Shown here: piece by piece, positions 11,596 to 33,165 of the stretch
Layout: every line of letters begins with the position of its first letter
How positions within the stretch are numbered: the first letter of the stretch is position 1
Assembly (NCBI GenBank): GCA_005789645.1
Contig: SXXH01000320.1
Coordinates: forward strand, 1-34,970
Direction of reading: 5' to 3'
DNA length: 34,970 bases
From: Planctomycetia bacterium
GTDB lineage: Bacteria > Planctomycetota > UBA1135 > GCA-002686595
Translations under genes and position numbers: made by a program
The notes under the pieces: model-generated
What the model saw: the letters and a program-made list of their open reading frames with translations, nothing else
Database searches by the model: none
Told to the model about the DNA's origin: nothing

Positions 11596-11723
11596 CAGCC
11601 TTGCTCCTCGTCCCGGTTGGTCGACGGTGGACCATCCGCCGTCGCTGCATTGGAAAGTGCCCGACTCGACGATTCGTGACGGAGAAGACGGCAGAGCCCG
11701 TCGTCGGAGCCCGGCGACGAAGC

Positions 11724-16744: not shown

Positions 16745-17629
16745 TCAGTCGCGGCGCACCGCAGCGAGGATGGCGCGCGTCGCGTAGCTCTTGTTGAGGG
16801 TGTAGAAGTGCAGACCTGGCGCGCCACCCTCGAGCAGCTTGCGGCACTGGCGGATCGCGTGTTCGATGCCGGTCGCCATGACGAGACCCGCGTCGTCCTT
16901 CACTCGCTCCATGCGCGCGGCGAGATCCGGCGGGATGGAGGCGCCGCACAGCTGCGTGAAGCGCTGCACTTGCGCGACGTTCGTGATCGGCATGATGCCT
17001 GGGATCACGGGCACCTTGACGCCGGCCGCGCGCAGGCGCGCCACATGCGCGAAGTAGACCTCGGGATCGAAGAACAACTGCGTGACGAGGAACTGGGCAC
17101 CGTTCTCGACCTTCTTGACGGTCCAAGCGAGGTCATCGTCGCGGTGCTTCGACTCGACATGCCCCTCGGGATACGAAGCACCGCCGACCGACAGGTGCGC
17201 GCGGGGCGCGAGGTGCGCGATCAAGTCGGTGGCGTGCGCGAAGCCATCGGCGGGCGCGACGAAGCTTGCTGGCGTCGAACCATCGGCTTCCTTGGGCGGA
17301 TCGCCACGCAAGGCGAGGATGTTGCGCACGCCCGCGTCCACCAGGCGGTCGACGATGCCGTCGATCTCGGCGCGCGACGAACCGACGCAGGTCAGATGCG
17401 CCATCGTGTTGATGCGCAGCTCGCTCTGGAGCTTGGCGACGATGCCGATGGTGCGCTCGCGCGTCGTGCCGCCGGCGCCGTAGGTGACCGACACGAAGTC
17501 GGGCTTCCAGACCTCCTGCAGATCGGCCACGGTCGCCAGCAACTGGCGCGCACCCTCGTCGGTCTTGGGCGGGAAGAACTCGAAGCTGAACACCGGCCAA
17601 CCGCGGCCGTGCAGATCGCGCACCTTCAT
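16745..17629 (-). CDS. metF: Methylenetetrahydrofolate reductase
   Basis: VFSFEFFPPKTDEG, VSVTYGAGGTTRERT, HLTCVGSSRAEID, NILALRGDPP, GAQFLVTQLFFDPEVY, VPVIPGIMPITN: MetF motifs throughout. Confidence 0.95.
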   Translation of the reverse strand: MKVRDLHGRGWPVFSFEFFPPKTDEGARQLLATVADLQEVWKPDFVSVTYGAGGTTRERTIGIVAKLQSELRINTMAHLTCVGSSRAEIDGIVDRLVDAGVRNILALRGDPPKEADGSTPASFVAPADGFAHATDLIAHLAPRAHLSVGGASYPEGHVESKHRDDDLAWTVKKVENGAQFLVTQLFFDPEVYFAHVARLRAAGVKVPVIPGIMPITNVAQVQRFTQLCGASIPPDLAARMERVKDDAGLVMATGIEHAIRQCRKLLEGGAPGLHFYTLNKSYATRAILAAVRRD

Positions 17630-18045
17630 GCTGGCTGCTCCAGCAAGACCTCGAGCTTGGCGCGATGCTCGGCGCGCAAGGGAATGCTCTTCATGGCGCG
17701 CAGATCGGTGCACACGGTCGTCATGCGCGCATCGACGAGCACCTCGTCGTCGCGACGAAACACGTAGCGCAGCTCGATCGAGGAACGTCCAAGTCGCGTG
17801 CAAGTCACCTTGACGACAGGACGGTCGCCAAAGCGCAGCGGCGCGCGGAAGTCCACTTCGGCGTGGACCAGCGGGAAGCCCACGCGCTCTTCGAGCAGCA
17901 ACTTGTCGTAGCGCACGCCGATGTGGCGGTCCCAAAGCTCTTCGTACACCTCGTGGATGTAGTCGTAGATGCGCGGGTAGTACGCGATCCCGGCCGGGTC
18001 GACGTGGCCGAAGCGGACTTGGATGATCGTGGTGAAGGAGCTCAC
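17626..18045 (-). CDS. YbgC/4-hydroxybenzoyl-CoA thioesterase family acyl-CoA thioesterase
   Basis: GTG start at 18045; VSSFTTIIQVRFGHVDPAGIAYYPRIYDYIHEVYEELW (hot-dog active-site D in FGHVDPAGIAYYPR). Stop overlaps the metF start (ATGA). Confidence 0.88.
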   Translation of the reverse strand: MSSFTTIIQVRFGHVDPAGIAYYPRIYDYIHEVYEELWDRHIGVRYDKLLLEERVGFPLVHAEVDFRAPLRFGDRPVVKVTCTRLGRSSIELRYVFRRDDEVLVDARMTTVCTDLRAMKSIPLRAEHRAKLEVLLEQPA

Positions 18046-18680: not shown

Positions 18681-19466
18681 TCAACCCTTGGCGAACAGCG
18701 GTGGCCAGGTCTCGCGCGCCATCGCCACGGCCGCGTCCGCCAGCGTTTCGACCAGTCGACGACCCTCCTCGACGCTGGCGTCCATGGGCGCCCCGCAATA
18801 GGCGCGGTCGGCGCCGGCCTTGGCGAAGCTGGTCGCGCCTTCCTTCATGCGCTCGAGGAGATGGATCCGCACCTCGGGCAGGGTGCGGCGCTCCGCCTCG
18901 CGCACCGCGGCGGGATCGGCCGCCATCACGAGGCTCGTCTCGTAGCTGCCGGCGTGGCAATCGCCTGATTGGAACTCTGCTCCGAGGCGCTCGGCGAGCT
19001 TCCTGCGCGTCACATCGACGAAGATGGCGTGCATGCGCTTCTCGCCAGGCGCATGGTGGTCGAGCATCACGCCACGCAGGATCCGCACATGCGCCGGCTC
19101 GAGGTGCGCATTGACGACGATGGCGCGCTCGAGGTCTTGGATGGCGAGCGACTTCAAGATGTCGTCGACCAAGGTCCACAGCGTGCCCGGATTGAGCGAG
19201 ACGCGCCCAGCAAAGCCCGCGGTGTACTCGACGAGCCCGTAGGCGAGCGGAGGCAGAACGAAGCACGGCACGCCGAGGGCGTGGAGCTTCTCCGCGGTGC
19301 GTCGCGCTTGTGCGTGCGCGATGGTCACGTCCGTATCCAACGGCAAGTGCGGCCCATGCGGTTCCGTGCTGCCGACCGGCAAGATGGCGACGGCCTTGGC
19401 GTCGAACAGCGCTTGCGCCTCGGGCCAAGTCATCTTCGCGAGGTCGTGCGGATGGCGAGCGTGCAT
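18681..19466 (-). CDS. Creatininase-family protein (metal-dependent amidohydrolase-like)
   Basis: ILPVGSTEPHGPHLPLDTDVTIA, VNAHLEPAHVRIL, GDCHAGSYETS: positions of the creatininase-family metal-binding motifs. Confidence 0.88.
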   Translation of the reverse strand: MHARHPHDLAKMTWPEAQALFDAKAVAILPVGSTEPHGPHLPLDTDVTIAHAQARRTAEKLHALGVPCFVLPPLAYGLVEYTAGFAGRVSLNPGTLWTLVDDILKSLAIQDLERAIVVNAHLEPAHVRILRGVMLDHHAPGEKRMHAIFVDVTRRKLAERLGAEFQSGDCHAGSYETSLVMAADPAAVREAERRTLPEVRIHLLERMKEGATSFAKAGADRAYCGAPMDASVEEGRRLVETLADAAVAMARETWPPLFAKG

Positions 19467-19468
19467 GG

Positions 19469-19636
19469 TCAAGGCTCTCCTCGGGGCGATGGCGCCAATG
19501 CGTCGATGGCGATCGCGCCGATGCGCTGGCAGGACTCGCATCCGTCGGCGCGGCGCCCCGCTCGCGCCACGCATGCTGCCGCGAGGATGCGCGCGTGTTG
19601 CGCGTCGGGTCGGTTCGAGTCCGCTCGGACGAGCAT
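19469..19636 (-). CDS. Candidate small protein, 55 aa, with CxxC
   Basis: MLVRADSNRPDAQHARILAAACVARAGRRADGCESCQRIGAIAIDALAPSPRGEP*. Start overlaps the ChaN stop (TGATG); stop lies 2 nt before the creatininase ATG; third codon positions mostly G/C. Confidence 0.5.
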   Translation of the reverse strand: MLVRADSNRPDAQHARILAAACVARAGRRADGCESCQRIGAIAIDALAPSPRGEP

Positions 19637-20595
19637 CACGACGCCGGCCCGACGTAGATCACGATGTCGCCGCGCTCGCGATCGGCTTCTTGCAACTCGT
19701 CGGCCCGCTGGTCGACGAAGCTGACGACCAAGGTGCGCGTGCCCGGACGCAAGTGGCGCACGACTTGCAGCGTGCCGCCTTCGTGGTCGACATGGAAGCG
19801 CCCAACGACGAGCACGAGCGGCGTCTGCGCGCCGCGCACGGCCTCGACCACGCTCGCGCCCATCGTCCAATCCCACAGGGACTGCGAGCGGAACACGGCG
19901 TCGAGGCGCGGACGCACGTCGGCCGCGGCGGGATCGGCGCCGTTCGCCATGAACGCGTCGAAGGATTGGCGATAGCGCCCGGCGAACAACTTGTCGGGGA
20001 AGTGGAACAGGCGTTGCTGCTCGGGCGTCAACTGCGCCAACGCTTCGTAGCCTTGCGTGCGAGCGAGACGCACGTACGGTCGCGGCGCGTTGGCCGCGTG
20101 GACGGCGCGTCCGTTGGACTTGGCGGTGTGCAGCATGGCGCGATGGCCCGGCGGGTAGTTGCCGTTGGAGCGTTGCGTGCGCGCGAGGAACACCGGCTCG
20201 TCGGCCAATCCCGCCAGCCAGTCGTCGATCCGCGATTGTTCGTCGCGCTCGAAGAACTCCATCGCCAGCGTCGCCCGCGGGCGCGCGGCGACGAGATCCT
20301 CGAACAAGGCCGCGGCGGCGGCGAGTCCCAACGGGTGGCCATGGTTCTCGCCGATCAGCACCGCCTCCGCCGAGGACGCGCGCGCCACGAGCTCCGACCA
20401 TGCCACGCGTTCGCCCGTGCGCCCATCCCACGCGATCACGCCGCGCGGATCGGCCGCCACCAACTCGGCCGCCACGATCGGAGACTCGGCGAGCTGCGCG
20501 ACGGCGGGCTTGCCCGGAGTGGCGCAAGCGGCGCAGAGCGCCAGGGCGGCCGCAGGCAGGCAAGCGAGCGACGACGGGTTGCGAACGATGCTCAT
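19636..20595 (-). CDS. ChaN family putative heme-binding lipoprotein
   Basis: MSIVRNPSSLACLPAAALALCAACATPGKP (lipobox-like); AVLIGENHGHPLGL, LAMEFFERDEQSRIDDWL, WDWTMGASVVEAV, VLVVGRFHVDHEGG. Confidence 0.85.
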   Translation of the reverse strand: MSIVRNPSSLACLPAAALALCAACATPGKPAVAQLAESPIVAAELVAADPRGVIAWDGRTGERVAWSELVARASSAEAVLIGENHGHPLGLAAAAALFEDLVAARPRATLAMEFFERDEQSRIDDWLAGLADEPVFLARTQRSNGNYPPGHRAMLHTAKSNGRAVHAANAPRPYVRLARTQGYEALAQLTPEQQRLFHFPDKLFAGRYRQSFDAFMANGADPAAADVRPRLDAVFRSQSLWDWTMGASVVEAVRGAQTPLVLVVGRFHVDHEGGTLQVVRHLRPGTRTLVVSFVDQRADELQEADRERGDIVIYVGPAS

Positions 20596-22178
20596 GCGGG
20601 GTCCTTCGCGGCCTGCGCGAGCCAGGCCTTCAGTTCCTTGCGCGCCACCTTGCCGCGGTCGTTCTTCGGCAGCGAGTCGCGCCACTCGAACCAGCGCGGA
20701 TACTTGTACGGCGCCAAGAGCGACTTGACATGGTCCTTGAGCCGCATGGCCAGCGCCTCGCAGCGCTCGTGCCCCGGCCGCAGCACGACGAAGGCGCACG
20801 GCTTGACCAGGCGCTCTTCGTCCTCGCGGCCGACCACGCACACCTCGGCGACGCTTTCGTGGGCGAGCAGCGCGTTCTCGATCTCCAGCGGCGAGACCCA
20901 GATGCCCGAGACCTTGAGCAAGTCGTCGTCGCGGCCCTCGAACCAGAACAAGCCGTTCTCGTCCTTGCGGAAGACATCGGCGGTCGTGCACCACTCGCCT
21001 TGGAAGGTGCGCACGCTCTGTTCCTTGTCGCCGTGGTAGCAGATCGCGGTGGATCCGCCGCGCACGCGCAAGCGACCGGGCTGGCCGTCCGGCACTGGTA
21101 GACCGTCGGGATCGACGATCTCGGCCTCGTAGCCGGGCACGAGGCGGCCGAGGCTGCCAGGCACGACTTCGCCGAAGCGATTGGAGATGTAGATGTGGAA
21201 CATCTCGGCCGAACCGATCCCGTCGAGGATCTCGACGCCGGTGCGACCCTTCCAGTCCTCGTAGAGCTTCGTCGGCAAGGCTTCGCCCGCCGACAAGACC
21301 ACGCGCAAGCTCGACAAGTCGGTCGCGGCGAGGCGCTCGTCCTTGAGCAGGTTGTTGATCATCGTCGGCACGCCGGTCAGGAGCGTCGGACGATGACGCG
21401 CCATTTGCGCGAGAAGCTCGTCGACCGTCGCGCGTCCCGGATACAGCACGACCGATCCGCCGAAGCGGAACGGGAACATCAGGTTCGTGCCCGTGGCGTA
21501 GCCGAAGAAGAGCTTGGGCACCGACAGGCAGACATCGGACTCGGTGTAGCGCGCGATCCCGCGCGCGTAGGTCTCGATGTTGTAGGCGAAGTCGCGCTGG
21601 GCGTGGACGCAGGCCTTCGGTCGCCCCGTCGATCCCGAGGTGAAGAGCCATCCTGCGAGGTCGTCGGGGCCGGTGGGTTCGGTCTCCGCCAGCGCCGAAG
21701 CCGGATCCTCCGCGTCGAGCGCCGCATCCCACGCCGTGCGCCCGCCGGCGCCGCCCACCACGAGCACGCACGGACGGACGCGGGACCTGGCCAGCGCCTC
21801 CGACATGGCCTCCAGCACCGAGTCGTGCACGACGATGGCGCGCGGCTTGACGTAGTCGACGTACTCGACGTACTGCTCGGCGTGCAGCAGCGGATTGACC
21901 ATGGCGAACACCGCGCCGGCGCGCAGCACGCCGAACCAGGCCTCGACGAACTCGATGCCATCGGGCAGCACGATCAACACGCGGTCTTCGGCCTGCACGC
22001 CGGCGCGACGCAACGCGGCCGCGGCGCGACGCGTGCGCTCGGCGACTTGGGCGTAGGTCCACGAACGATCCCCCACGTGGACGCAGGCCTTGCCGGCGCG
22101 GCCCTCGCGCAGGTTGCGGTCCAGCAAGTCGTCCGCGAGGTTGTAGCGCGCGGGCAAGGGGTGGAGCAGCGGCTGCAT
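20592..22178 (-). CDS. Benzoate-CoA ligase family / acyl-CoA synthetase (ANL superfamily)
   Basis: NLADDLLDRNLREGRAGKACVHVGDRSWTYAQVAERTRRAA; GWLFTSGSTGRPKACVHAQRDF; DGIGSAEMFHIYISNR; GLFWFEGRDDDLLKVSGIWVSPLEIENAL; LPKNDRGKVARKEL. Confidence 0.92.
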   Translation of the reverse strand: MQPLLHPLPARYNLADDLLDRNLREGRAGKACVHVGDRSWTYAQVAERTRRAAAALRRAGVQAEDRVLIVLPDGIEFVEAWFGVLRAGAVFAMVNPLLHAEQYVEYVDYVKPRAIVVHDSVLEAMSEALARSRVRPCVLVVGGAGGRTAWDAALDAEDPASALAETEPTGPDDLAGWLFTSGSTGRPKACVHAQRDFAYNIETYARGIARYTESDVCLSVPKLFFGYATGTNLMFPFRFGGSVVLYPGRATVDELLAQMARHRPTLLTGVPTMINNLLKDERLAATDLSSLRVVLSAGEALPTKLYEDWKGRTGVEILDGIGSAEMFHIYISNRFGEVVPGSLGRLVPGYEAEIVDPDGLPVPDGQPGRLRVRGGSTAICYHGDKEQSVRTFQGEWCTTADVFRKDENGLFWFEGRDDDLLKVSGIWVSPLEIENALLAHESVAEVCVVGREDEERLVKPCAFVVLRPGHERCEALAMRLKDHVKSLLAPYKYPRWFEWRDSLPKNDRGKVARKELKAWLAQAAKDPA

Positions 22179-22224
22179 GCGCCTGCGAGTGTAGCGCCCG
22201 AAGGGCCGCGCGAACCGCGGCGAC

Positions 22225-23214
22225 TCAGGATGGCAGCAGGAGGATGGAACCCGTCGTGGCGCGCGACTGCAGCGCCTCGTGAGCGGCCCGCGCCTCGACG
22301 AGCGGCCAACTCGCGGTCGCTTCGGCGGAGAGCGTCCCGTCGGCGAGCAGGCGGAACAAGTCCTCGGCCCGCGTCTCGAGCTCGTCGCGCGCGTCCACGT
22401 GGTCCCACAAGGATGGACGCGTCAGGAACAAGGAGCGCTTGGCGAGCTCGAGCACGTCGAACGGCGGGACCGCGCCTGAGGACTGCCCGAAGCTCACCAG
22501 CGTGCCGCGCGTGCGCAAGCACGCGAGCGAACGGGCGAAGGTCGCGCCACCCACCGAGTCGTAGACGCAGTCCACGCCACGCCCGTCCGTGAAGGCCTTG
22601 GCGTGGGCGACGAAGTCGGCGCTGGACGCGTCGACCACCTCGTCGGCTCCCAATCGCCGCGCGCGCTCGATCTTGGCGGAGGATCCCACCACCGCCAGCA
22701 CGCGCGCGCCGAGGCGCTTGGCCCACGGCACCAGCAGCGAGCCCACGCCGCCGGAGGCCGCATGCACCAGCAGATGGTCGCCGGGCTTGGCCTTGAAGCT
22801 GTCGTGCAGCAAGTAGTGCGCGCTCAAGCCCTTCAACATCGAACAAGCAGCCTGCGCGCACGAGACGGATGCCGGCAGGCGCACGAGGCGCGCGGCGGCG
22901 AGGTTGCGTCGCGTCGCGTACGCGCCCGCGGGCGTGGCGGCGTAGGCCACGCGATCGCCGACGACGAGCCCCGCCACGCCCGCTCCCAGCTCCTCGACCA
23001 CGCCCGCCGCCTCGAAGCCCGGCGTGAAGGGCGCCTGCGCCGGATACAAGCCGCTGCGCAGGTAGACATCGATGTAGTTGACGCCGATCGCGTCGTGGCG
23101 CACGCGCACCTCGCCCGCCTCGGGCGAGGCGAGCTCGAGCTCGCGCGGCACGAGCACCTCGGGTCCGCCGGACGCGGCGCACACGATGCGCATGTCGCTC
23201 GCGTCGCTTCCCAC
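22225..23214 (-). CDS. Quinone oxidoreductase / medium-chain dehydrogenase family (QOR-like)
   Basis: IGVNYIDVYLRSGLYP, TPGFEAAGVVEELG, LLVHAASGGVGSLLVPWAKRLGARVL, GVDCVYDSVGG. Start could be the internal Met at 23193. Confidence 0.92.
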   Translation of the reverse strand: MGSDASDMRIVCAASGGPEVLVPRELELASPEAGEVRVRHDAIGVNYIDVYLRSGLYPAQAPFTPGFEAAGVVEELGAGVAGLVVGDRVAYAATPAGAYATRRNLAAARLVRLPASVSCAQAACSMLKGLSAHYLLHDSFKAKPGDHLLVHAASGGVGSLLVPWAKRLGARVLAVVGSSAKIERARRLGADEVVDASSADFVAHAKAFTDGRGVDCVYDSVGGATFARSLACLRTRGTLVSFGQSSGAVPPFDVLELAKRSLFLTRPSLWDHVDARDELETRAEDLFRLLADGTLSAEATASWPLVEARAAHEALQSRATTGSILLLPS

Positions 23215-23218
23215 GCGC

Positions 23219-24082
23219 TCAGTCCGCGAGGTTCGCGGCGGCCAACGCCTCGCGCAACTGGTTCGCCGTCTGCCAACGCTCGCGCTTGTCGGCCATCAAC
23301 CCGCGCGCGATGGCGATCTCGAGTCCTCGCGGCACATCGGCCGCGGGCGCGCGCTGGTTCATCGGCGGCGGACGCTTCTCGAGCTTGCTCTGGAACACCT
23401 CGAGGAAGCTCTTGCCGCGCCACGGCAGGACGCCGCAGGCGAGTTCGTACAAGAGCGTCGCCAGGTTGTAGACATCCGATTGCACGTCGGGCGATTCGCC
23501 GCCGAACTGCTCGAGCGGCGCGTAGAATGGCGTGCCGATCAAGGCGGTCTTCTCGCCCAGGTGCTTGGCGCTCCACAAGGCCGGCGTGATGCCGCAATCG
23601 ACGAGCACCGCGCGCCCTTCGTCGGACACATGCACCGTGTGCGGCTTGACATCGCCATGCACGAGGCCGTTGGCGTGGATCTCCGCGAGCCCGGCGCACA
23701 ACTCCAGGCCCAGCGCCACCACGCGCGCGGGCTCCCACGCCTCGCCTTCGACCTTCAGCTCGCGCAAGGCCCGGCCGAGGGGCATGTCCGTGGCGTACAG
23801 CACGCTGCCGTCCTCGTGGCGATCGACGGCCACGGCGCGCAAGACATGCGCGTGCTTGACCGGCAACCACCGCGACATCGCGGCCGCGAACTCGTCGGCG
23901 TCGCCGCGACGCTCGAAGAGCACCGTCGAGTAGATCTGCAGCTCGCGCAGCGTCCCGTCGAGGTCCTCGGCCGCGAAGGTGGCGGCCATGCCGCCCGTGC
24001 GGTTGGTGCGCACGATCTTCCAGCGATCGAGCAGCACCTTGCCCGGCGACAAGTCGAAGAGGGTCAGGGAGCGCTTCTGCAT
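23219..24082 (-). CDS. Protein-kinase-like domain protein with degenerate catalytic motifs (possible pseudokinase)
   Basis: RWKIVRTNRTGGMAATFAAEDLDGTLRELQIYS, GLVHGDVKPHTVHVSDEGRAVLVDCGI, GTPFYAPLEQFGGESPDVQSDVYNLATLLYELACG: Hanks-type kinase layout. Confidence 0.85.
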   Translation of the reverse strand: MQKRSLTLFDLSPGKVLLDRWKIVRTNRTGGMAATFAAEDLDGTLRELQIYSTVLFERRGDADEFAAAMSRWLPVKHAHVLRAVAVDRHEDGSVLYATDMPLGRALRELKVEGEAWEPARVVALGLELCAGLAEIHANGLVHGDVKPHTVHVSDEGRAVLVDCGITPALWSAKHLGEKTALIGTPFYAPLEQFGGESPDVQSDVYNLATLLYELACGVLPWRGKSFLEVFQSKLEKRPPPMNQRAPAADVPRGLEIAIARGLMADKRERWQTANQLREALAAANLAD

Positions 24083-24087
24083 GCCGC

Positions 24088-25290
24088 CTAGTATGCCGTG
24101 CGGCCGGCGAGATGCTCGCGCCAGCGGCCGTTGCCCCGCAAGGCGGCCAACGCCTCCGCGAACTCGTCGAGCTCGTCCTCGAGCGTGTAGTAGTGCGGAC
24201 TGACGCGGATGCCGGCCCCCGGGCGATGATCGACGAGGATCCCCTGCGCCTCGAGCGCCTTGACGAAGGCCGGCCCGTTCTCGTCGGCGGAGAGGCGCAC
24301 CGTCAGCGTCCCGCCGCGCTCGGCGGCCACCTCGGGGCTGTGCAGCTCGAAGCCGCGCGACAAGAGGTCGCGCCGCAGGCGCTCGGTCAGGTGCTGCGAC
24401 CAAGCGCGCACGTTCCCGGTGCCGACCTCGAGCAGCAGCTCGTAGCCCGCCGAAGCCTGCACGAAGCTCGCCACCGACGGCGAGCCGTGCAGCATGCGCT
24501 CGATGCCGCTGGCGTAGCGTTGCGCGCCGGTCTCGAAGGCGAAGGGCGCCGCGTGCGCGGCCCAACCGGTGATGCGCGGCTCGAGGCGCGGCAGCAGGTC
24601 AGGCCGCACGTACAGGTAGCCCGCTCCCGGGCCGCCGCACAGCCACTTGACCGAACCGCCGCAGACCATGTCCACGCCCGTCGCTTGCACGTCGAGCGGG
24701 ACGGTGCCGAGCGACTGGTACGCGTCCAGCAGCACCAGCGCGCCGACCTCCTTGGCGCGACGGCAGATGGCCGCCACATCCTGGATGTAGTGGCTCTTGT
24801 AGGTCACATGGCTGATGGGGACGATCGCGGTCGTCTCGTCGATCGCCTCGAGCAGGCGCGCGGTGTCGACGCGGATGCCGTCGGTCGGCACGACTTGCAC
24901 GCGCGCGCCGTACTTCTTCCAACCTTCCCACACGTACATGTTCGTGGGGAAGTTCATGTCGGTGTAGACGACCTTGTCGCGCGGGCCGGAGAAGTCCAGC
25001 GCGCTGGCGACGAGGCCCTGGATCACGGACACGTTCTGGTGCATGACCACCGAGCCTTCCGGCGCGTTCATGAGGCGCGCCAGCAGGTTCCCCACCCGCG
25101 TAGGCGCGTCCCACCAGCCCTCGGCCCAAGCGCGCACGCCGCGCGTCTCCCATTGGTCGCAGAAGTCCGTCAGCTTCTGGCGCGCACCGCGCGGCATCGC
25201 GCCGAGCGAGTGGTTCACGAGGTAGGTCGTGGATTCGAGGATGGGGAACTGGTCGCGCCAGTCCGCGGGATCGTGATCCGGCAAGGCCAT
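24088..25290 (-). CDS. Class V aminotransferase-fold PLP enzyme, kynureninase-like
   Basis: YLVNHSLGAMPRG, ALVLLDAYQSLGTVPLDV, GGSVKWLCGGPGAGYLYVRPDL (PLP Lys context), GWAAHAAPFAFETGAQRYASGIERMLHGSPSV (compare kynureninase W-GH-PF...GI-R...G-P). Confidence 0.85.
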   Translation of the reverse strand: MALPDHDPADWRDQFPILESTTYLVNHSLGAMPRGARQKLTDFCDQWETRGVRAWAEGWWDAPTRVGNLLARLMNAPEGSVVMHQNVSVIQGLVASALDFSGPRDKVVYTDMNFPTNMYVWEGWKKYGARVQVVPTDGIRVDTARLLEAIDETTAIVPISHVTYKSHYIQDVAAICRRAKEVGALVLLDAYQSLGTVPLDVQATGVDMVCGGSVKWLCGGPGAGYLYVRPDLLPRLEPRITGWAAHAAPFAFETGAQRYASGIERMLHGSPSVASFVQASAGYELLLEVGTGNVRAWSQHLTERLRRDLLSRGFELHSPEVAAERGGTLTVRLSADENGPAFVKALEAQGILVDHRPGAGIRVSPHYYTLEDELDEFAEALAALRGNGRWREHLAGRTAY

Positions 25291-25294
25291 GGCG

Positions 25295-25639
25295 TCAGGC
25301 CTTCCCACCGAGTCCGGTCAACTGGTCGTCGGGGATGACGAGGCGCGCGACGGGCTCTCCGCGCGCGATGTGGCTGTCGATGATCTCGTCGACATCCGCC
25401 GGCGTCACGCCGCCGTACCAGACCTGCTCCGGGTAGACCACGACCACGCAGCCCTTGGCGCACTGGTCGAGGCACAGCGCCTTGTTGGGCCGCACGACAC
25501 GCTTGTAGCCGCGCGCGACGAGCTTCTCCTTGAACGCCGCCGCCACATCGTGCCCGCCCTTCCCGGCGCAATCGCCGCGCGGATCGTCCTTGCCACGCTC
25601 GTTCACGCACACGAACACATGCCGTTCGAACTTCGCCAT
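25295..25639 (-). CDS. Thioredoxin-like [2Fe-2S] ferredoxin
   Basis: MAKFERHVFVCVNERGKDDPRGDCAGKGG...VRPNKALCLDQCAKGCVVVVYPEQVWYGGVTP: Cys pattern of the (2Fe-2S) thioredoxin-fold ferredoxin family. Confidence 0.92.
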   Translation of the reverse strand: MAKFERHVFVCVNERGKDDPRGDCAGKGGHDVAAAFKEKLVARGYKRVVRPNKALCLDQCAKGCVVVVYPEQVWYGGVTPADVDEIIDSHIARGEPVARLVIPDDQLTGLGGKA

Positions 25640-25650
25640 CGCCTTCGTCC

Positions 25651-26802
25651 TCAGCCCAGGATCTGCTTGGCGAGCACGAGCTTCTGGACTTCGCTCGTGC
25701 CCTCGTAGATGCGCAGGGCGCGCACATCGCGCCACAGGTGCTCGACGACCTCGCCCTTCTTGACGCCCAACCCTCCGAAGTGCTGCACCGCGCGATCGCA
25801 GATCCACGAGGCGGACTCGGTCGAGTAGTACTTGGCGCGCGCCACCGCGGCCACGGCGTCGCCGCCCTCGTCGACGAGGCGCGCGGCTTCGTCCACGAGC
25901 AGCTCCGCCGCGCGCAGGCGCACGTCCATCTCGGCGATGTCGAAGCGCAGCGCCTGGAAGCTCGCCAGCGGCTTGCCGAATTGCCGACGCGCGCGCAGGC
26001 GACCGCACGACTCGAACAACGCGCGTCGCGCGAAGCCGTTGGCCGCGGCAGCCACCGAGGTGCGGAAGCGCGCCAGCACGGCCAACGCGAGCTCCGTCCC
26101 CGCGCCCACGTCCCCCAGCCGGTGCGCATCGGGCACGACCAACTCGTGGAAGCGGTACTCGCCGATCGGGTGCGGCGAGACCACCTCGAAGCGCCGCGCC
26201 TCGAGGCCGCGCGCGGAACCGGGCACATGGAACATGGTCGTGCCGCCCGGCTCCCCGGGTTCGCCCGAGGTGCGCGCCAGGACGCAGATGGCGTCGGCGA
26301 TGCCGCAGTTGCTGATGAAGGTCTTGGCCCCGTCGAGCACCCACGAGTCGCCGCGACGCGTGGCGCGCAACGCGACTTCGGCAAGCGACGAGCCGGCGTC
26401 CGGCTCGGTCAACGCGAAGGCGCCGACCAGCTCGCCGCGCGCCACGGCGGGCAGGATCTCGCGCTTCAGGCCCTCGGGCCCGCCCAAGGCGATGGCATGG
26501 CTGCCGAGTCCTTGCATGACGAGCATCACATCCAGCATCGGCGAGTGCCAGGCGAGTTCCTGGCGCAGGGCGCACAAGGCCCGCACCGACACCGAGGTCG
26601 GCGCGCACAGGCCGGCCGCGTGGGCGCCGCCCCAGGCTTCGGGGACGCACCACGCGGCCAGTCCCGCGCGCGCCACGGCCGACAAGGCCTCGCGCGCGCC
26701 GCTGGTCTCGTCCAGCGCGTCGACGCGCGCCCCGTGCACCGCCCCCACGGCGCGCGCCTTGGCGCGCAGATCGTCAAGCAAATTTGACAGGCTCGCGCTC
26801 AT
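25651..26802 (-). CDS. Acyl-CoA dehydrogenase
   Basis: GAFALTEPDAGSSLAEVALRATRRGDSWVLDGAKTFISNCGIAD, RRQFGKPLASFQALRFDIAEM, QHFGGLGVKKGEVVEHLWRDVRALRIYEGTSEVQKLVLAKQILG. Confidence 0.95.
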   Translation of the reverse strand: MSASLSNLLDDLRAKARAVGAVHGARVDALDETSGAREALSAVARAGLAAWCVPEAWGGAHAAGLCAPTSVSVRALCALRQELAWHSPMLDVMLVMQGLGSHAIALGGPEGLKREILPAVARGELVGAFALTEPDAGSSLAEVALRATRRGDSWVLDGAKTFISNCGIADAICVLARTSGEPGEPGGTTMFHVPGSARGLEARRFEVVSPHPIGEYRFHELVVPDAHRLGDVGAGTELALAVLARFRTSVAAAANGFARRALFESCGRLRARRQFGKPLASFQALRFDIAEMDVRLRAAELLVDEAARLVDEGGDAVAAVARAKYYSTESASWICDRAVQHFGGLGVKKGEVVEHLWRDVRALRIYEGTSEVQKLVLAKQILG

Positions 26803-27602
26803 CGCGGCGACGCCCCCCGGAAGCGTGGCGCGCGCTTTTCCAGGAACGCGTGGTGAGCCTCGGCGTAGTCGGGATCGGCCATGCACTCGGCCTGCACCCA
26901 ACCTTCGGCCGCCAACGCGCGCTCGAAGTCGAGCACCGCCTCGCCGTGCACCATGCGCTTGGTCGCCGCCATGCCCAAGGCGGGGCCCGCCGCCAGCTTC
27001 TTCGCCCAGGCGAGGGCCGCCGCGGGCAGGTCGGCGTCGGGGACGAGGCGGTTGTACAAGCCGATGCGCTGCGCGTGGGCCGCGTCGATGAACTCGCCCT
27101 CGAGCAGCAACTCCTTGGCGTGGCCGAGGCCGACGATGCGCGGCAGCAGCCACGCCGCGCCCATGTCCGCGCCCGACAGCCCGACCTTGGTGAAGAGATA
27201 GGCGATCTTGGCCGAATGGGCCGCGATGCGCACGTCCGCCGCCGCCGCCATGACCGCGCCGGCGCCGCAGGCGAGGCCATTCAGCCCGCACACGATCGGC
27301 TTCTCGAGGCGCAGCATGTTGGCGATCAACTCGCAGGTCATGCGCGTGAAGGCCGCGACTTGCGCCGGGTCCGACTCGAGCAGGTTGGCGATGATGTCCT
27401 TCTGGTCGCCGCCCGAGCAGAACGCCCGCCCCGTGCCCGTCAAGAGCACCGCTCGCGCTTCGTGGCGAGAGCTCAGCCAGTGGAAGGCATCGGTCAGTTC
27501 GCGGTACGAGGCGAAGGTCAGCGCGTTCAGCCGCTCGGGGCGGTCGAGCCGCACGACGGCGACACCGTCCTCCTCGTGGTAGCGGAAGTGCTGCGGATTC
27601 AT
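26799..27602 (-). CDS. Enoyl-CoA hydratase/isomerase family protein
   Basis: VAVVRLDRPERLNALTFASY, GTGRAFCSGGDQKDI, KPIVCGLNGLACGAGAVMAAAADVRIAAHSAKIAYLFTKVGLSGADMGAAWLLPRIVG. ATGA overlap with the acyl-CoA dehydrogenase start. Confidence 0.93.
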   Translation of the reverse strand: MNPQHFRYHEEDGVAVVRLDRPERLNALTFASYRELTDAFHWLSSRHEARAVLLTGTGRAFCSGGDQKDIIANLLESDPAQVAAFTRMTCELIANMLRLEKPIVCGLNGLACGAGAVMAAAADVRIAAHSAKIAYLFTKVGLSGADMGAAWLLPRIVGLGHAKELLLEGEFIDAAHAQRIGLYNRLVPDADLPAAALAWAKKLAAGPALGMAATKRMVHGEAVLDFERALAAEGWVQAECMADPDYAEAHHAFLEKRAPRFRGASPR

Positions 27603-27804
27603 CGCCTTGATGATCGCAGGACGGATCGCCGCCTCCAAGACGCGCCACGGCGCTCTTCTGGAACGATCCGGGCGAGTCAGGCCGCGCGCAGCCTCGTTGG
27701 AGGGGACGAGAGGGGTCTCGGGGCCGCCCAGCCCCCGTGCGACTCGCGCGGCGCCGAGCAAGGAGCGCCCAAGGAGACCGTCGACCCTCCCTGCGGATGG
27801 AGGC

Positions 27805-27833
27805 TTGCATGCCCTCCTCGCCCTCGCTATCGT
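27805..27833 (+). promoter_or_regulatory. Possible sigma-70-like promoter of the tRNA
   Basis: TTGCAT (27805-27810), 17-nt spacer, TATCGT (27828-27833); about 47 nt upstream of the tRNA 5' end. Confidence 0.45.
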
Positions 27834-27880
27834 CTTCGCCTCGCAACCTTGCCGGAGGCTTCCGGCGAGACCAACACGGC

Positions 27881-27956
27881 GCCCACGTAGCTCAGTTGGT
27901 CGAGCAGGTGACTCTTAATCATCAGGTCCTAGGTTCGACCCCTAGCGTGGGCACCA
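27881..27956 (+). tRNA. tRNA-Lys (anticodon CTT), CCA encoded
   Basis: Cloverleaf reads GCCCACG-TA-GCTC-AGTTGGTC-GAGC-A-GGTGA-CTCTTAA-TCATC-AGGTC-CTAGG-TTCGACC-CCTAG-CGTGGGC-ACCA; 76 nt, all stems pair (one G-T in the anticodon stem). Confidence 0.96.
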
Positions 27957-28078
27957 CTCCTCCCCTCCGCGGCTGATGCCCACGGAGCGCCGCGAGGACT
28001 CGCCGGACTGCGCGCCAAGCGGCGCATCGCCCGAGGCATTCCGCGGATTCCATTGGCGCGGCGAGCTTCCTTGGCACC

Positions 28079-30253
28079 TTGACTGTCGCGGGCGCGACCC
28101 TCCACTGCGCGACTCTCCTTTCTCCTGGCCACGCCCAAGACCCCGCCATGTTCCTGCAAGACGCACCTCAGGTGGTCGAGACCACCATCGTCGCCATCCG
28201 CTCCGAGCAGACCGTGCCCCGCTCCAGCACCTCGGTCACCGTGCTCGACGCCGAAGACTTGGTGCGTACGAACGAACGCACGCTGCCGCGCATGATCGCC
28301 CAAGCGGCGGGAGTCGGCGTGTTCCTCCAGGAGACCAACACCGGCGGCGGCGCGCCGATCCTGCGCGGCACCTTGGGCGAACGAGTGTTGATCGTCGTCG
28401 ACGGCGTGCGACTCAACGACGGCACGACGCGCCAGGGGCCCAACCAATCGCTCAACACAATCGACCCCGCCATCGTCGAGCGCGTCGAGGTCGTGCGCGG
28501 ACCGGCCTCGGTCCTGTACGGCTCGGACGCCATCGGCGGCGCCATCCTGATCACGACGAAGCGCCGCGCGCCGGGCAGCGCGAACCTCGCCGGGGACGAG
28601 CACGGCCTGCAAGTCGGCCTCGACCAGTCGTTCCAGACGGCCAGCATGGGTTGGCGCGGTGCGCTGCACGCCTCGGGCGCCGATGCGCAGCACGGCTGGC
28701 TCGCCAACGCGACCTTCGAGAACTGGGACGAGTTGCGCTCGGGCGATGGCGAGGTCGACAACACCGGCTACGCCTCGGACGCGCAGTTCGGCTCGTGGGT
28801 GCGCCAGTTCGACGCCCGCCGCAGGTTGACGGTCATCGCGCGCCGCAAGGTCGACCACGACGTGCCGCGCACCGACCGCATGAATGTCGGCTTCGGCCAG
28901 GCATTCCCCTCCAGCGCGGAGTTCATCTTCACCAAGCAGGACGCCAGCGCCGCCGTGGTCGAATGGAGCGACGACGGCGCCGGGATGCTGTCGGATCGCA
29001 TGCAGCTGCGCGTCTACGCGCGGCGCTACGCGGAGGACAGGCGATTGCGCAGCCAGAACACGACCACCGGCGTGCCCAGCGGCACGCGCAGCTTCGAGTC
29101 GGAGGACACGCTGGGCCTGGGCTTGGGCGCCGACTGGAAGAAGGCGCTGGGCGAGGACCACTTGCTGAGCTGGGGCTTGGACTTCGAAGCCGAGGACATC
29201 GACAGCGATCGCGTCAACCAATCCATCACCACCGGCGTCGAGACTCCGGGCGTGCCGCCCTTCGCTCCCGACTCGAGCTACACGACTGCCGGCCTGTACG
29301 CGCAGGACGAGTGGCGCGCCTTCGATGCACTGGATGTCGTCATGGGCGCGCGCTGGTCCTGGGTCAGCTTCGACTTCGACGAGTTCACCAGCGGCCCGGC
29401 CGGCGGCGCGAACGTCGATGGCGAGTTCGACGACCTGTCGGCGAGCTTGCAGGTCGGCCGCGAGGTCGCGCCGGGCCTGCGCCTGTCGGCCATGGTGGCG
29501 CAGGGCTTCCGCGCGCCGCACATGGACGACCTCGCCAAGCGCAGCACGACCTACGGGGGGACCACGCTGCCCAACCCCGACGTGGAGTCCGAGGAGAGCT
29601 TGTCAGGCGAGCTCACGGCGGACTGGACGAAGGATCGCTGGACGAGCGCGGCTTCCATCTGGCACACGCACATCGGCGACGCCATCGGGGCGCGGCGCAT
29701 CGACGACGGCGGCACTCCCACCGTCGGCGGCGACGACACGTACCTGCGCGACAATGTCGGCTCGCTGACCATGTACGGCATCGAGCTGCGCGTCGAACGT
29801 CGCCTCGAAGGCGCCTGGAGCGACTTCGCGGTGGCCCTCGGCGCAGCGTGGACGGAAGGCAAGCAGTACGACCCCACCGTCGACCCCGCCACGGGCGAGG
29901 CCGCCTACGGCGTCCCCGGACGGCGCATCCCGCCGCTCTTTGGCGAGTTGGCGTTGCGCTACGACCCCTCGGCGCCCCAAGGCCTCGTGCATTGGGGCGA
30001 GGTGTCGCTCAAGGCCGCCGACGAACAGGACCAGCTGAACCCCGAGGACAAGCTCGATCCGCGCATCGATCCGAACGGCACCGACGGTTGGGCCACGGTC
30101 GGCTTCGATCTGGGTGGTCCCTTGGGCGCGCAGTCGCGCTCGCGCTGGAGCTTCGGACTGCACAACATCCTCGACGAGTCCTACCGCACGCATGGATCGG
30201 GCGTGGATGCTCCCGGCATGAACGCCATCTTCGGCCTGGAGTGGAACTTCTAG
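28079..30253 (+). CDS. TonB-dependent outer-membrane receptor (heme/siderophore receptor type)
   Basis: VVETTIVAIRSEQTVPRSSTSVTVLDAEDL, APILRGTLGERVLIVVDGVRLNDGTTRQGPNQSLNTIDPAIVERVEVVRGPASVLYGSDAIGGAILITTKR (plug), C-terminal beta-strand ending WNF. Exact start uncertain (TTG at 28079 in the track). Confidence 0.92.
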   Translation: MTVAGATLHCATLLSPGHAQDPAMFLQDAPQVVETTIVAIRSEQTVPRSSTSVTVLDAEDLVRTNERTLPRMIAQAAGVGVFLQETNTGGGAPILRGTLGERVLIVVDGVRLNDGTTRQGPNQSLNTIDPAIVERVEVVRGPASVLYGSDAIGGAILITTKRRAPGSANLAGDEHGLQVGLDQSFQTASMGWRGALHASGADAQHGWLANATFENWDELRSGDGEVDNTGYASDAQFGSWVRQFDARRRLTVIARRKVDHDVPRTDRMNVGFGQAFPSSAEFIFTKQDASAAVVEWSDDGAGMLSDRMQLRVYARRYAEDRRLRSQNTTTGVPSGTRSFESEDTLGLGLGADWKKALGEDHLLSWGLDFEAEDIDSDRVNQSITTGVETPGVPPFAPDSSYTTAGLYAQDEWRAFDALDVVMGARWSWVSFDFDEFTSGPAGGANVDGEFDDLSASLQVGREVAPGLRLSAMVAQGFRAPHMDDLAKRSTTYGGTTLPNPDVESEESLSGELTADWTKDRWTSAASIWHTHIGDAIGARRIDDGGTPTVGGDDTYLRDNVGSLTMYGIELRVERRLEGAWSDFAVALGAAWTEGKQYDPTVDPATGEAAYGVPGRRIPPLFGELALRYDPSAPQGLVHWGEVSLKAADEQDQLNPEDKLDPRIDPNGTDGWATVGFDLGGPLGAQSRSRWSFGLHNILDESYRTHGSGVDAPGMNAIFGLEWNF

Positions 30254-30313
30254 CGCCTGCGTCGCGTCCATGGACGCATCGAGCTCTTCCGGCCAAGCAT
30301 GGCTGGAACGCAA

Positions 30314-30354
30314 CCGCGGTCGCGAGGCGCAGGCAAGGCGCGTCGCGACCGCGG
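30314..30354. terminator. Long GC hairpin between convergent genes, candidate bidirectional terminator
   Basis: CCGCGGTCGCGA-G-GCGC-aggcaag-GCGC-G-TCGCGACCGCGG; perfect 12-bp outer arms, between the stops at 30253 (+) and 30420 (-). Confidence 0.6.
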
Positions 30355-30369
30355 CACCATCCAGCGAAC

Positions 30370-30409
30370 TCGTCGAGGCGCGGTTTTCGTCGAGGCGCGG
30401 TTCTCGTCG
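30370..30409. repeat. 17-bp tandem direct repeat (2 copies plus a 6-nt partial)
   Basis: TCGTCGAGGCGCGGTTT TCGTCGAGGCGCGGTTC TCGTCG. Confidence 0.85.
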
Positions 30410-30419
30410 TGTCGCAGTA

Positions 30420-30824
30420 TCAGGGCAAGGCCGCGACGGCTTCGATCTCGACCAAGGCGCCGTCTTCGAGCAGGTCGGCGACCTGCACCAAGGCCATCGC
30501 CGGCCAATGCCGGCCCACATGGCGCTTCCACGCTTCGCCGCAAGCCTTGCTCGCGGCGAGGTAGGCGCGCTTGTCGACCACATAGATCGTCAGCTTGACG
30601 AGCTGCGCGGGCTCGCCGCCGGCCGCCTGCACCACGGCGCAGACATTCGCCAACGCCTGCTCGAACTGCGCGGCGAAGTCGCCGCGGCCAACCAGGCGTT
30701 GCTCGGCGTCCCAGGCGATCTGCCCGGCGACATGCAGCAGGCGGCCGGCGTTCTCGACCAGCACGCCATTGGCGTAGCCCTTGGGAGCCTTCCAACCAGG
30801 GGGCTCTACGACGACGAGCTTCAT
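30420..30824 (-). CDS. RidA/YjgF family protein (enamine/imine deaminase family)
   Basis: YANGVLVENAGRLLHVAGQIAWDAEQRLVGRGDFAAQFEQALANVCAVVQAAGGEPAQLVKLTIYVVDKRAYLAASKACGEAWKRHVGRHWPAMALVQVADLLEDGALVEIEAVA. Confidence 0.92.
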   Translation of the reverse strand: MKLVVVEPPGWKAPKGYANGVLVENAGRLLHVAGQIAWDAEQRLVGRGDFAAQFEQALANVCAVVQAAGGEPAQLVKLTIYVVDKRAYLAASKACGEAWKRHVGRHWPAMALVQVADLLEDGALVEIEAVAALP

Positions 30825-30834
30825 GCGGCGGCCC

Positions 30835-31647
30835 TCATGCCGTGCGCCATTGTTCGGCTTCCTGGTCGGGGATCAAGCCGCGGCCGCCGACCAGCTCGAC
30901 CAGCATGCCGTTCCTGTCGCCGCCGGCGAGGCGCGCCACGACATCCGCGATCTCCTCGCACGACACCAGGCTCCCGCCGGGGTTCTCCTTGGCCAGGAAG
31001 GCGCGCACCTCGGCGGGATCGCGTCCAGTTTTCTTGACAATGCGCCCGACCGTCCCGTCGGTCATGGGCGAGTCGACGTAGTGCGGGCAAACGAGGTTCA
31101 TGGTCACGCCCTTGCCCTCCAACTCGGCGGCGGCGCAGCGCGTGTAGCCGACCAGCGCATGCTTGCTGGCGACGTAGGCCGCGGCGTAGGGATAGCCTCG
31201 CAGCCCGGCGCTGCTGGCGACGTTGACGATGCGGCCGTGCCCGCGCTCGAGCATCGCCGGCGCGAAGCGCTCGATCAGGCGTCGCGGCCCGTGGAAGTTC
31301 GTGCGCAGGTGCTTCTCGTAGATGTCGACGCCCGTTTCGCGTCCATGCCGCAGGAACGGCGCCGTCTCCGCGATCCCGGCGTTGTTGACGAGCCACCAAA
31401 CGCCGCCACGCCGCTCCAACTCGGGCTCGAGCTCGGCCACGGCGTCGTCGTAGGTCGCGGGATCGGTCACGTCCAAGTGCACCGCCCAGGCGAGGCCCCC
31501 TTCGGCCTTGATGGCGTCGGCGGTGTCGTGCACCGACTCCAAGCTGCGCGCCGCGCACACCACGGCGGCTCCGGCGCGCGCAAGGCGCAGGGCGATGGCG
31601 GCGCCGCTGCCGCGGCCGGCGCCGGTGACGAGGGCCACGGGTTGCAT
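30835..31647 (-). CDS. Short-chain dehydrogenase/reductase (SDR)
   Basis: ALVTGAGRGSGAAIALRLA, WWLVNNAGIAE, GRIVNVASSAGLRGYPYAAAYVASKHALVGYTR (YxxxK). Confidence 0.95.
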   Translation of the reverse strand: MQPVALVTGAGRGSGAAIALRLARAGAAVVCAARSLESVHDTADAIKAEGGLAWAVHLDVTDPATYDDAVAELEPELERRGGVWWLVNNAGIAETAPFLRHGRETGVDIYEKHLRTNFHGPRRLIERFAPAMLERGHGRIVNVASSAGLRGYPYAAAYVASKHALVGYTRCAAAELEGKGVTMNLVCPHYVDSPMTDGTVGRIVKKTGRDPAEVRAFLAKENPGGSLVSCEEIADVVARLAGGDRNGMLVELVGGRGLIPDQEAEQWRTA

Positions 31648-31758
31648 GGGCGCATCTTGCACGCCGCGCGCGTGGCTTGTCGAGCGCCGACGGCGCTTTC
31701 GCGGCCGAGCACCGCGACGATGGCGACGAACGCCCGAGGTGCGCACAATGCAGCCGCC

Positions 31759-33165
31759 ATGCTGCTCTTCCAACCGCTTCAGCATCGCGCCCTCAGCCTC
31801 GCCACGCGCGCCTGGGTGCCCGCGATGGTGCCGTGGCGTTCCAACGAGGAGGGCGAGGCCACCGACGCGGTGCGCGCGTGGTACGGACGCTTCGCGGATG
31901 GACGACCGGGCGCCATCGTGGTCGAGGCCACCGGCGTGCGCGACGTGAAGAGCGGACCGTTGCTGCGCATCGGCGACGAACGCTTCGTGCCGGCGCTGGC
32001 CGAGGTGGCCGCGGAGGTGCGGCGCAGATCCGAAGGCCGCACGCGCCTCTACATCCAGCTGATCGACTTCCTCGGCATCCGCCGCAGGCCCGAGAAGGCG
32101 GCGTGGGTGCGACGCTTCTGGAAACCGGCCGCGCGCCACCGCGAACGGCTTTGCGCGGCCGAAGGCGGCGAAGCGTGGCTCGAGCTGGACGAGGTCGCGT
32201 TGCGCGAGCGCGCCCTGCTCTTGCCCCACGCGCGATTCTTGTCGGCCTTGGACGCGCGCGAAGTCGAGGAACTGGAGATGGGGTGGCGCGAGCGCGTGGT
32301 CGACACGCACCTCCCCCACATCGCCGACCTGCCGCGGGTGCTGCCGCCGCTCTTCGCCGCCGCGGCACGTCGCGCGCGGGACGCAGGCTTCGACGGCGTC
32401 GAGCTGCACTGCGCGCACGCCTACACGCTGGCGAGCTTCTTGTCGCGCACCAACGATCGCGCCGACGGCTACGGCGGCACGAACGAAGCGCGCGCGCGCC
32501 TGCCGCTCGAAGTCCTGCGCGCGGTGCGGGCCGCGGTCGGCGAGGACTTCGTGGTCGGCGCGCGCATCCTCGGTGAAGAGTGCATCGCCGGCGGCTCGAC
32601 CATCGACGACGCCAAGGACCATGCGCTGCGCCTCGCGCGCGCCGGCCTCGACTTCCTTTCGATCAGTCGCGGCGGCAAGTTCGAGGACGCGCGCCAGCCC
32701 AAGGTGGGCGAGGCCGCCTATCCGTACACCGGACCTAGCGGCCACGCCTGCATGCCGACGATCAAGTCGCATGGCGATCCACGCGGCGCGAACCTGCACC
32801 TCTCGCGCGCCATCCGCGCCACGCTGCGCGGTGCGGGCTTGGCGACGCCGGTGGTCGGCGCCGGCGGCATCGACAGCTCGGCCTTGGCCGAGCGCGCGCT
32901 GGCGGAGGGCGCGTGCGACATCGTGGGCGCGGCGCGCCAATCGCTTGCCGATCCGGATTGGTGGTGGAAGATCGAGCACTCGCGCGAACACGAGGTGCGC
33001 CGCTGCAGCTACACCAACTACTGCGAAGGACTCGATCAACGCCACAAGCAGGTCACTTGCCGCTTGTGGGATCGCGACCACCGTGCGCACGACGCCGACG
33101 GCGCGTTGCTCTTGTCGCACGACGGCAAGCGACGACTGCTCGCGCCGCCTTGGCGCCCGCGCTGA
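31759..33165 (+). CDS. NADH:flavin oxidoreductase / old yellow enzyme family protein with C-terminal Cys-rich motif
   Basis: LFQPLQHRALSLATRAWVPAMVPW, ARRARDAGFDGVELHCAHAYTLASFLSRTNDRADGYGGTNEARARLPLEVLRAVRAAVGEDFVVGARI, PVVGAGGI, DIVGAARQSLADPDWW, RRCSYTNYCEGLDQRHKQVTC. Confidence 0.93.
   Translation: MLLFQPLQHRALSLATRAWVPAMVPWRSNEEGEATDAVRAWYGRFADGRPGAIVVEATGVRDVKSGPLLRIGDERFVPALAEVAAEVRRRSEGRTRLYIQLIDFLGIRRRPEKAAWVRRFWKPAARHRERLCAAEGGEAWLELDEVALRERALLLPHARFLSALDAREVEELEMGWRERVVDTHLPHIADLPRVLPPLFAAAARRARDAGFDGVELHCAHAYTLASFLSRTNDRADGYGGTNEARARLPLEVLRAVRAAVGEDFVVGARILGEECIAGGSTIDDAKDHALRLARAGLDFLSISRGGKFEDARQPKVGEAAYPYTGPSGHACMPTIKSHGDPRGANLHLSRAIRATLRGAGLATPVVGAGGIDSSALAERALAEGACDIVGAARQSLADPDWWWKIEHSREHEVRRCSYTNYCEGLDQRHKQVTCRLWDRDHRAHDADGALLLSHDGKRRLLAPPWRPR

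Follow-up and report, generated by a model that had tools for sequence, protein, structure and literature searches.

A planctomycete gene cluster probably involved in the catabolism of tryptophan and kynurenine through anthraniloyl-CoA

The window, i.e., the whole 34,970-nucleotide stretch of DNA that was analyzed, is contig C310 (positions 1–34970) of the metagenome-assembled genome G000 (3.6 Mb, 72% complete), and the closest named genomes carrying the same genes belong to the Planctomycetota (here, G denotes a genome, L a fetched locus, C a contig, and f a genome family). It harbors a minus-strand gene cluster that, judging from sequence, is probably the main part of a planctomycete catabolic cluster leading from tryptophan and kynurenine to anthraniloyl-CoA, as a variation on a bacterial pathway that is already known. 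A sequence-only reading of this DNA had proposed such a variant of the 2-aminobenzoyl-CoA pathway, and the proposal is supported by the conserved linkage of the genes, by a tryptophan 2,3-dioxygenase (TDO) gene and a monooxygenase fragment found in the same genome, and by analogous operons in other bacteria.

Genomic evidence for a probable route from kynurenine to anthraniloyl-CoA

The evidence comes mainly from the genes that accompany the kynureninase-like enzyme (KYN) of this cluster in other genomes. TDO adjoins KYN in other planctomycete families and in many Acidobacteriota, and a KynB-type kynurenine formamidase gene (PF04199) adjoins it in 10 of the 10 genomes of families f6 and f7. 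In the planctomycete locus L188, genes for an enoyl-CoA hydratase (ECH), an acyl-CoA dehydrogenase (ACD), a ferredoxin (FDX), TDO, KYN, an aryl-CoA ligase (LIG), a creatininase-family protein (CREAT), and a thioesterase (THIO) follow one another in this order, and the acidobacterial loci L203 and L211 bring together RidA, ECH, ACD, the monooxygenase, an old yellow enzyme (OYE)-type reductase, KYN, TDO, and LIG. Independently, an operon annotated as flavin monooxygenase (FMO), short-chain dehydrogenase/reductase (SDR), MarR, ECH, ACD, ligase, kynU/kynA, thioesterase, and RidA is found on plasmids from Thalassospira marina and Sagittula stellata. Because of the TDO and KynB neighbors, these planctomycete and acidobacterial loci, and the alphaproteobacterial operons, the conversion of kynurenine to anthraniloyl-CoA is the best reading of the locus. 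The linkage of KYN with TDO or kynurenine formamidase was seen in relatives and not in the window itself.

At the genome level, TDO was present in all 44 of the compared KYN genomes, and 40 of the 44 also had the monooxygenase, the Fisher values for both co-occurrences being calculated irrespective of kinship. In G000, TDO is encoded at G000:C156, outside the window, from which the sequence-only reading had noted it to be missing, and the monooxygenase fragment lies at the end of G000:C229.

Gene content and organization

Family calls were made with Pfam and NCBIfam profiles, and gene borders were set by a codon-usage gene caller. The features of the locus are as follows:

26799–27638, minus strand: ECH, crotonase-family enoyl-CoA hydratase (PF00378, 3.6e-51; NF006107/PRK08258, 332 bits versus a cut-off of 330)
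25651–26802, minus strand: ACD, acyl-CoA dehydrogenase (PF00441, 5.9e-40; conserved position)
25295–25639, minus strand: FDX, thioredoxin-like [2Fe-2S] ferredoxin (NF041612/NF041613, 81–83 bits, under their cut-offs)
24088–25290, minus strand: KYN, divergent kynureninase-like pyridoxal phosphate (PLP) enzyme (TIGR01814, below its cut-off; best structure 1qz9)
23219–24082, minus strand: STPK, protein-kinase-like protein, probably degenerate (PF00069, 5.1e-14)
22225–23214, minus strand: QOR, quinone-oxidoreductase-like dehydrogenase, accessory (PF00107, NF008024)
20592–22178, minus strand: LIG, benzoate-CoA-ligase-family aryl-CoA ligase, proposed 2-aminobenzoate-CoA ligase (TIGR02262, 498 versus a cut-off of 375)
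19636–20595, minus strand: ChaN-type haem-binding-family protein, accessory (PF04187, 6.4e-36)
18681–19466, minus strand: CREAT, creatininase-family amidohydrolase, proposed N-formylkynurenine formamidase (PF02633, 1.2e-51)
17626–18045, minus strand: THIO, 4HBT/YbgC-type acyl-CoA thioesterase (PF13279, 7.5e-11)
16745–17629, minus strand: methylenetetrahydrofolate reductase (MTHFR), conserved neighbor (PF02219, 9.2e-90)
27881–27956: tRNA-Lys, between the operon and the RidA/SDR/OYE genes
28079–30253: TonB receptor, between the operon and the RidA/SDR/OYE genes
30420–30824, minus strand: RidA-family protein, Met replacing Arg105 by alignment (PF01042, 8.9e-24)
30835–31647, minus strand: SDR oxidoreductase (PF00106, 1.4e-47)
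about 31759–33165, plus strand: standalone OYE-type flavin oxidoreductase, divergent from SDR (PF00724, 8.4e-38)

Read 5′ to 3′ on the minus strand, the order is ECH-ACD-FDX-KYN-STPK-QOR-LIG-ChaN-CREAT-THIO-MTHFR. The 4-nt overlaps of ECH/ACD, LIG/ChaN, and THIO/MTHFR, together with gaps of a few nucleotides between other neighbors, suggest a single operon comprising at least ECH through ChaN. The compact run described in the sequence-only reading was confirmed, all the named genes being present with strong family matches, and so was the placement of RidA, SDR, and OYE near it, at 30420–33165, past the tRNA-Lys and TonB receptor genes; the adjacent YbgC-type thioesterase lies just beyond the range of 18681–33165 assigned to the locus. 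That inventory, however, left CREAT, ChaN, STPK, tRNA-Lys, and the TonB receptor unmentioned. In the kinase-like protein, the catalytic loop reads HGDVKPHTV where HRDLKPxN is usual, and DFG is replaced by DCG; the protein is probably a pseudokinase within a catabolic operon. Elsewhere in the window, large secreted-type proteins are encoded at 3719–6058 (minus strand; thrombospondin-3 repeat), 6057–8099 (plus strand; metallophosphatase with a laminin-G domain), and 8179–12636 (minus strand; FG-GAP repeats and a C-type lectin domain).

Conservation of the neighborhood

Neighbors were counted in 25 same-family loci retrieved with KYN as bait, the counts being lower bounds since many loci end at contig ends. 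STPK was found near KYN in at least 24 of them, FDX in 21, LIG in 20, ACD in 19, ECH in 18, CREAT in 17, SDR and RidA in 16 each, MTHFR in 14, THIO in 13, and OYE in 11; QOR and ChaN were found in only four and one, respectively. As the gene arrangement is found again in as many as 25 genomes of the family, it is not a product of chance, and a neighborhood lacking conservation, named beforehand as an outcome that would speak against the proposal, is not what the related planctomycetes display. In most relatives, OYE (reverse strand), SDR, RidA, ECH, and ACD are contiguous with no TonB gene between them, so that RidA, SDR, and OYE are rightly grouped with the operon. The linkage of ECH, ACD, SDR, and RidA, all present in the cluster, is conserved, and ECH shares 43–55% identity with its counterparts in the Thalassospira, Sagittula, and acidobacterial clusters, THIO being 33–37% identical to the thioesterases of the two former.

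Some variations were also observed. The THIO/MTHFR pair (16745–18045) stays with CREAT in many relatives, and a tie to formate recycling via tetrahydrofolate is a possible, speculative explanation for this linkage. A protein of about 230 amino acids lies between FDX and KYN in L139 (555–1244) and in 28 other relatives and is absent from the genome of the window; it has no Pfam match, and its predicted fold is that of the phenylacetyl-CoA epoxidase subunits PaaA/PaaC (predicted local distance difference test, pLDDT, 92.9; template-modeling, TM, score of about 0.8). None of its histidines is invariant, so it probably lacks a diiron site. In Pyrinomonas methylaliphatogenes and a relative (L206, L200), KYN, TDO, and a thioesterase are accompanied by other ECH/ACD genes with no adjoining ligase, and the monooxygenase was not found in the Pyrinomonas genome. 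In Vicinamibacteria-type Acidobacteria (L197, L201, L207, L216–L218), KYN adjoins lpxC and not tryptophan genes. KYN seemed to be absent from G002, but a fragment of it remains there, and the gap is an assembly break. Reverse-strand reading frames that cover KYN in some relatives (c18) were dismissed as shadows of gene calling.

Kynureninase-like enzyme, ligase, and monooxygenase

The closest solved structure to KYN, both by sequence and by fold (TM 0.89), is the kynureninase 1qz9, and its PLP lysine, Lys215, is invariant. LIG scores above the cut-off of the aryl-CoA ligase family TIGR02262, and its closest solved structure is a benzoate-CoA ligase. Planctomycete and acidobacterial ligases group in one clade (94/90 support), apart from the references, so the substrate of LIG has to be deduced from its context: in relatives, LIG lies beside TDO and KYN, and in Acidobacteria beside the monooxygenase too, which favors anthranilate. 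Comparing its pocket residues with those of 4wv3 and of benzoate-CoA ligases yielded mixed results, which were not taken as proof. The linkage of a monooxygenase with a ligase in G058 (L113) was discounted because the ligase there shows 27% identity and is no orthologue of LIG.

The monooxygenase fragment of G000 is the N-terminus of a protein of the 2-aminobenzoyl-CoA monooxygenase type and matches positions 1–289 of NF006101, a family named for the bifunctional salicylyl-CoA 5-hydroxylase/oxidoreductase. A full-length planctomycete homolog (G005) passes the cut-off of this family (1082.7 versus 1078), and its gene is placed inside the block, between ChaN and CREAT (L109). Frames of relatives extend to about 750–800 amino acids, and the one scanned contained FAD_binding_3 and Oxidored_FMN domains. 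In the acidobacterial L203 and L211, by contrast with this fused form, a monooxygenase of 376–379 amino acids, likewise of the 2-aminobenzoyl-CoA type, stands alone, and a separate OYE is encoded on the opposite strand; in these loci (L203 6182–8752, L211 7342–9927), the monooxygenase gene overlaps that of this OYE. The OYE of the window is 53–55% identical to the one beside the unfused acidobacterial monooxygenase. The idea that it simply supplies the half that the monooxygenase lacks was discarded, as relatives also have the fused monooxygenase/OYE. An XdhC-family gene adjoins the monooxygenase gene in L111, L112, L115, L121, and L122, which belong to this genus and to near relatives.

Creatininase-family protein as a candidate formamidase

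CREAT matches PF02633 with 175.9 bits against a cut-off of 31.3 and conserves the TExHG, TD, CHAG, and YE metal-ligand motifs, while its score for creatininase proper (TIGR04448) is 89.2 bits versus an equivalog cut-off of 235. The search for a kynurenine formamidase suggested by the sequence-only reading revealed no KynB-type protein (PF04199) in G000, a genome 72% complete. Among the 44 KYN genomes, 33 carry CREAT without KynB beside KYN, 10 carry KynB beside KYN without CREAT, and one has neither. Moreover, PF04199 is present and CREAT absent in seven KYN genomes beyond the order (G061–G065, G073, G074), which is the pattern of the acidobacterial KYN genomes, and five planctomycetes with CREAT have PF04199 nowhere in the genome. 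CREAT sits in TDO-KYN-LIG-CREAT operons, and in family f8 it is placed near TDO, KYN being on another contig.

CREAT occurs in genomes that have no KynB next to KYN, and it is therefore put forward as a candidate N-formylkynurenine formamidase of a new class, with roughly even chances of being so. This chemistry has a precedent in the family, since BrbF, a formamide hydrolase that acts in riboflavin synthesis and belongs to the creatininase family, was shown to hydrolyze an N-formyl amide (PMC9478397). The substrate of BrbF belongs to the riboflavin pathway, and its likeness to CREAT is at the level of the family. In the open literature, subscription papers being outside the search, no link between creatininases and formylkynurenine hydrolysis was found, nor was any paper joining kynureninase with 2-aminobenzoyl-CoA. 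On the other side of the balance, G018 has retained a divergent CREAT together with THIO and MTHFR while TDO, KYN, and the monooxygenase were undetected, a PF04199 gene of some kind is found in 13 of the 33 CREAT-bearing KYN genomes, G075 carries both CREAT and PF04199, and kinship among the genomes makes the independent CREAT/KynB events few.

Alternative explanations

Several observations weigh against the kynurenine-to-anthraniloyl-CoA assignment. KYN scores 130.0 bits for TIGR01814, under the cut-off of 246.4, whereas the Thalassospira KynU used as a control reaches 289. Relative to the Pseudomonas fluorescens enzyme, KYN shows Tyr226 replaced by Val, His204 by Gln, and Asp132 by Asn, the position of Tyr226 being Val or Leu in its orthologues, while the control kynureninases of Thalassospira and Sagittula keep the canonical residues, including Tyr226. 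The LIG clade is separate from the Thalassospira/Sagittula ligases and from the reference benzoate- and anthranilate-CoA ligases. Furthermore, TDO and the monooxygenase are unlinked to the window in this fragmented genome, the latter is truncated by a contig end, and its family is named for salicylyl-CoA. The RidA-like protein of the window, its relatives, Thalassospira, and Sagittula has PAM instead of PAR, with Met at what we take, from E. coli RidA, to be Arg105. This residue has been proposed to decide deaminase activity (PMC5619798). As the alphaproteobacterial clusters bear the same Arg-to-Met change, it may mark a specialised type of RidA. Finally, in G017 (L227) and G030 (L228), the cluster persists but has no KYN. 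In these two loci, KYN is missing from between its usual neighbors, together with FDX in G030, as a natural loss; with LIG, ECH, ACD, and CREAT retained, anthranilate itself could be the substrate, or the cluster could have a second input.

A rival explanation is that a different aryl acid, be it benzoate, salicylate, or a substituted benzoate, is degraded via its CoA thioester, the PLP enzyme being a class-V lyase with some other substrate that is in the operon by coincidence. The benzoate-CoA ligase structure matched best by LIG, the salicylyl-CoA name of the monooxygenase family, the divergent KYN active site, and the KYN-less clusters of G017 and G030 all agree with this, but KYN adjoins TDO or KynB, with LIG beside both, in several families and phyla, TDO accompanies KYN in every genome compared, and RidA and the analogous kynU/kynA operons indicate an amino-substituted substrate, so that such a scenario is quite improbable. 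The sequence-only reading had listed, as outcomes that would tell against it, a ligase and a PLP enzyme from clades with unrelated substrates and a genome devoid of monooxygenase. For both enzymes, the context argues against unrelated substrates while the sequence is undecided, given the separate ligase clade and the sub-cut-off KYN score; the monooxygenase, correctly reported as missing from the window, is represented elsewhere in the genome by a fragment of the right family.

Other alternatives accept the pathway and concern its formamidase step. The deformylating enzyme could be a different protein, such as an alpha/beta-hydrolase (e.g., c13) or the product of an unlinked gene, with CREAT hydrolyzing, for example, a ring-cleavage product. 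This is a serious contender, although rated somewhat short of even: in its favor are the G018 context, the PF04199 matches in CREAT-bearing genomes, and a DLH-like hydrolase after KYN in 14 relatives, but c13 is absent from the window operon, CREAT and a KynB beside KYN never occur together in the 44 genomes, each of the two being found without the other, and CREAT keeps company with TDO even where KYN is on another contig. Alternatively, the second and third steps could be reversed, KYN cleaving N-formylkynurenine to N-formylanthranilate and alanine, and CREAT deformylating the former. N-formylanthranilate hydrolases exist in quinaldine degraders, and the divergent KYN active site and the position of CREAT directly after LIG in compact operons are compatible with this order. 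However, KynB, from the formylkynurenine hydrolase family, holds the corresponding place beside KYN orthologues, and this order is considered unlikely, although the sequence evidence does not separate the two. A classical 3-hydroxyanthranilate route, considered for the f6/f7 genomes with RidA beside KYN and KynB, was set aside, most such genomes having the monooxygenase.

Proposed pathway

In the kynurenine-to-anthraniloyl-CoA route, for which we infer all substrates as well as the order within the fifth and sixth steps, TDO (G000:C156) would produce N-formylkynurenine, from which CREAT (18681–19466) would remove formate, the least certain step, with about the same chance of being right as wrong. 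KYN (24088–25290) would then yield anthranilate and alanine, and LIG (20592–22178) would generate 2-aminobenzoyl-CoA. In the fifth step, the monooxygenase/OYE reductase (G000:C229) would hydroxylate and dearomatize this compound to 2-amino-5-oxocyclohex-1-ene-carbonyl-CoA, and a further or alternative reduction would come from the window's standalone OYE. In the sixth, the ring would be deaminated, opened, and degraded as CoA thioesters, with the RidA-like protein aiding the loss of the amino group, SDR acting in redox conversion, the crotonase in ring opening, ACD in oxidation, and THIO in rescue. FDX, STPK, and QOR are given no role in this scheme. The gene families, their conserved linkage, and the presence of TDO and the monooxygenase fragment in the genome are established at the level of sequence.

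If confirmed, this would define an aerobic tryptophan/anthranilate route for uncultured Planctomycetota and Acidobacteriota and would point to a protein that may fill the place of a missing enzyme, namely a formamidase other than KynB. The lower 2-aminobenzoyl-CoA pathway has been described merely as beta-oxidation-like (PMC4539516, PMC3534580), and the split monooxygenase/reductase, the Arg105-less RidA of unrelated clusters, and the ECH-ACD-SDR set would help to resolve it. It is tentatively suggested that the pathway was assembled separately in Planctomycetota and Acidobacteriota, with a CREAT formamidase in the former, a kynureninase devoid of Tyr226, and, in the latter, an unfused monooxygenase/OYE replacing the fused A. 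evansii enzyme.

Comparison with known systems

The aerobic 2-aminobenzoyl-CoA (anthranilate) pathway was reportedly described in Azoarcus evansii by Schuhle et al. in 2001. Like it, the planctomycete system comprises beta-oxidation-type enzymes and a protein of the YjgF/RidA family, as well as an aryl-CoA ligase and, as a fragment elsewhere in the genome, a putative FAD monooxygenase/OYE reductase. Unlike it, the planctomycete operon has a kynureninase, its ligase belongs to another clade, and the monooxygenase is encoded outside the window; standalone OYE, FDX, kinase-like, and CREAT genes are added, whereas the MarR regulator and the ABC binding protein were not seen in the planctomycete cluster. 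Knowledge of the first two reactions of this CoA route comes from A. evansii, and anthranilate-CoA ligases have been verified in Arthrobacter Rue61a (PMC4539516, PMC3534580).

The Thalassospira and Sagittula operons share the same function set from tryptophan to anthraniloyl-CoA and the Arg-to-Met change in RidA, with identities of 43–44% for ECH, 41–46% for ACD, and 45–49% for RidA, and only 36–37% for the ligase, which falls in another clade. In contrast to the planctomycete cluster, they carry a canonical KynU that keeps Tyr226, and they are devoid of CREAT, ferredoxin, and kinase-like genes. With respect to the P. fluorescens kynureninase (1qz9), KYN shares the fold and keeps the equivalents of the PLP lysine, Asp201, Trp256, and Arg375, but it is 29% identical and differs at the three active-site positions described above.

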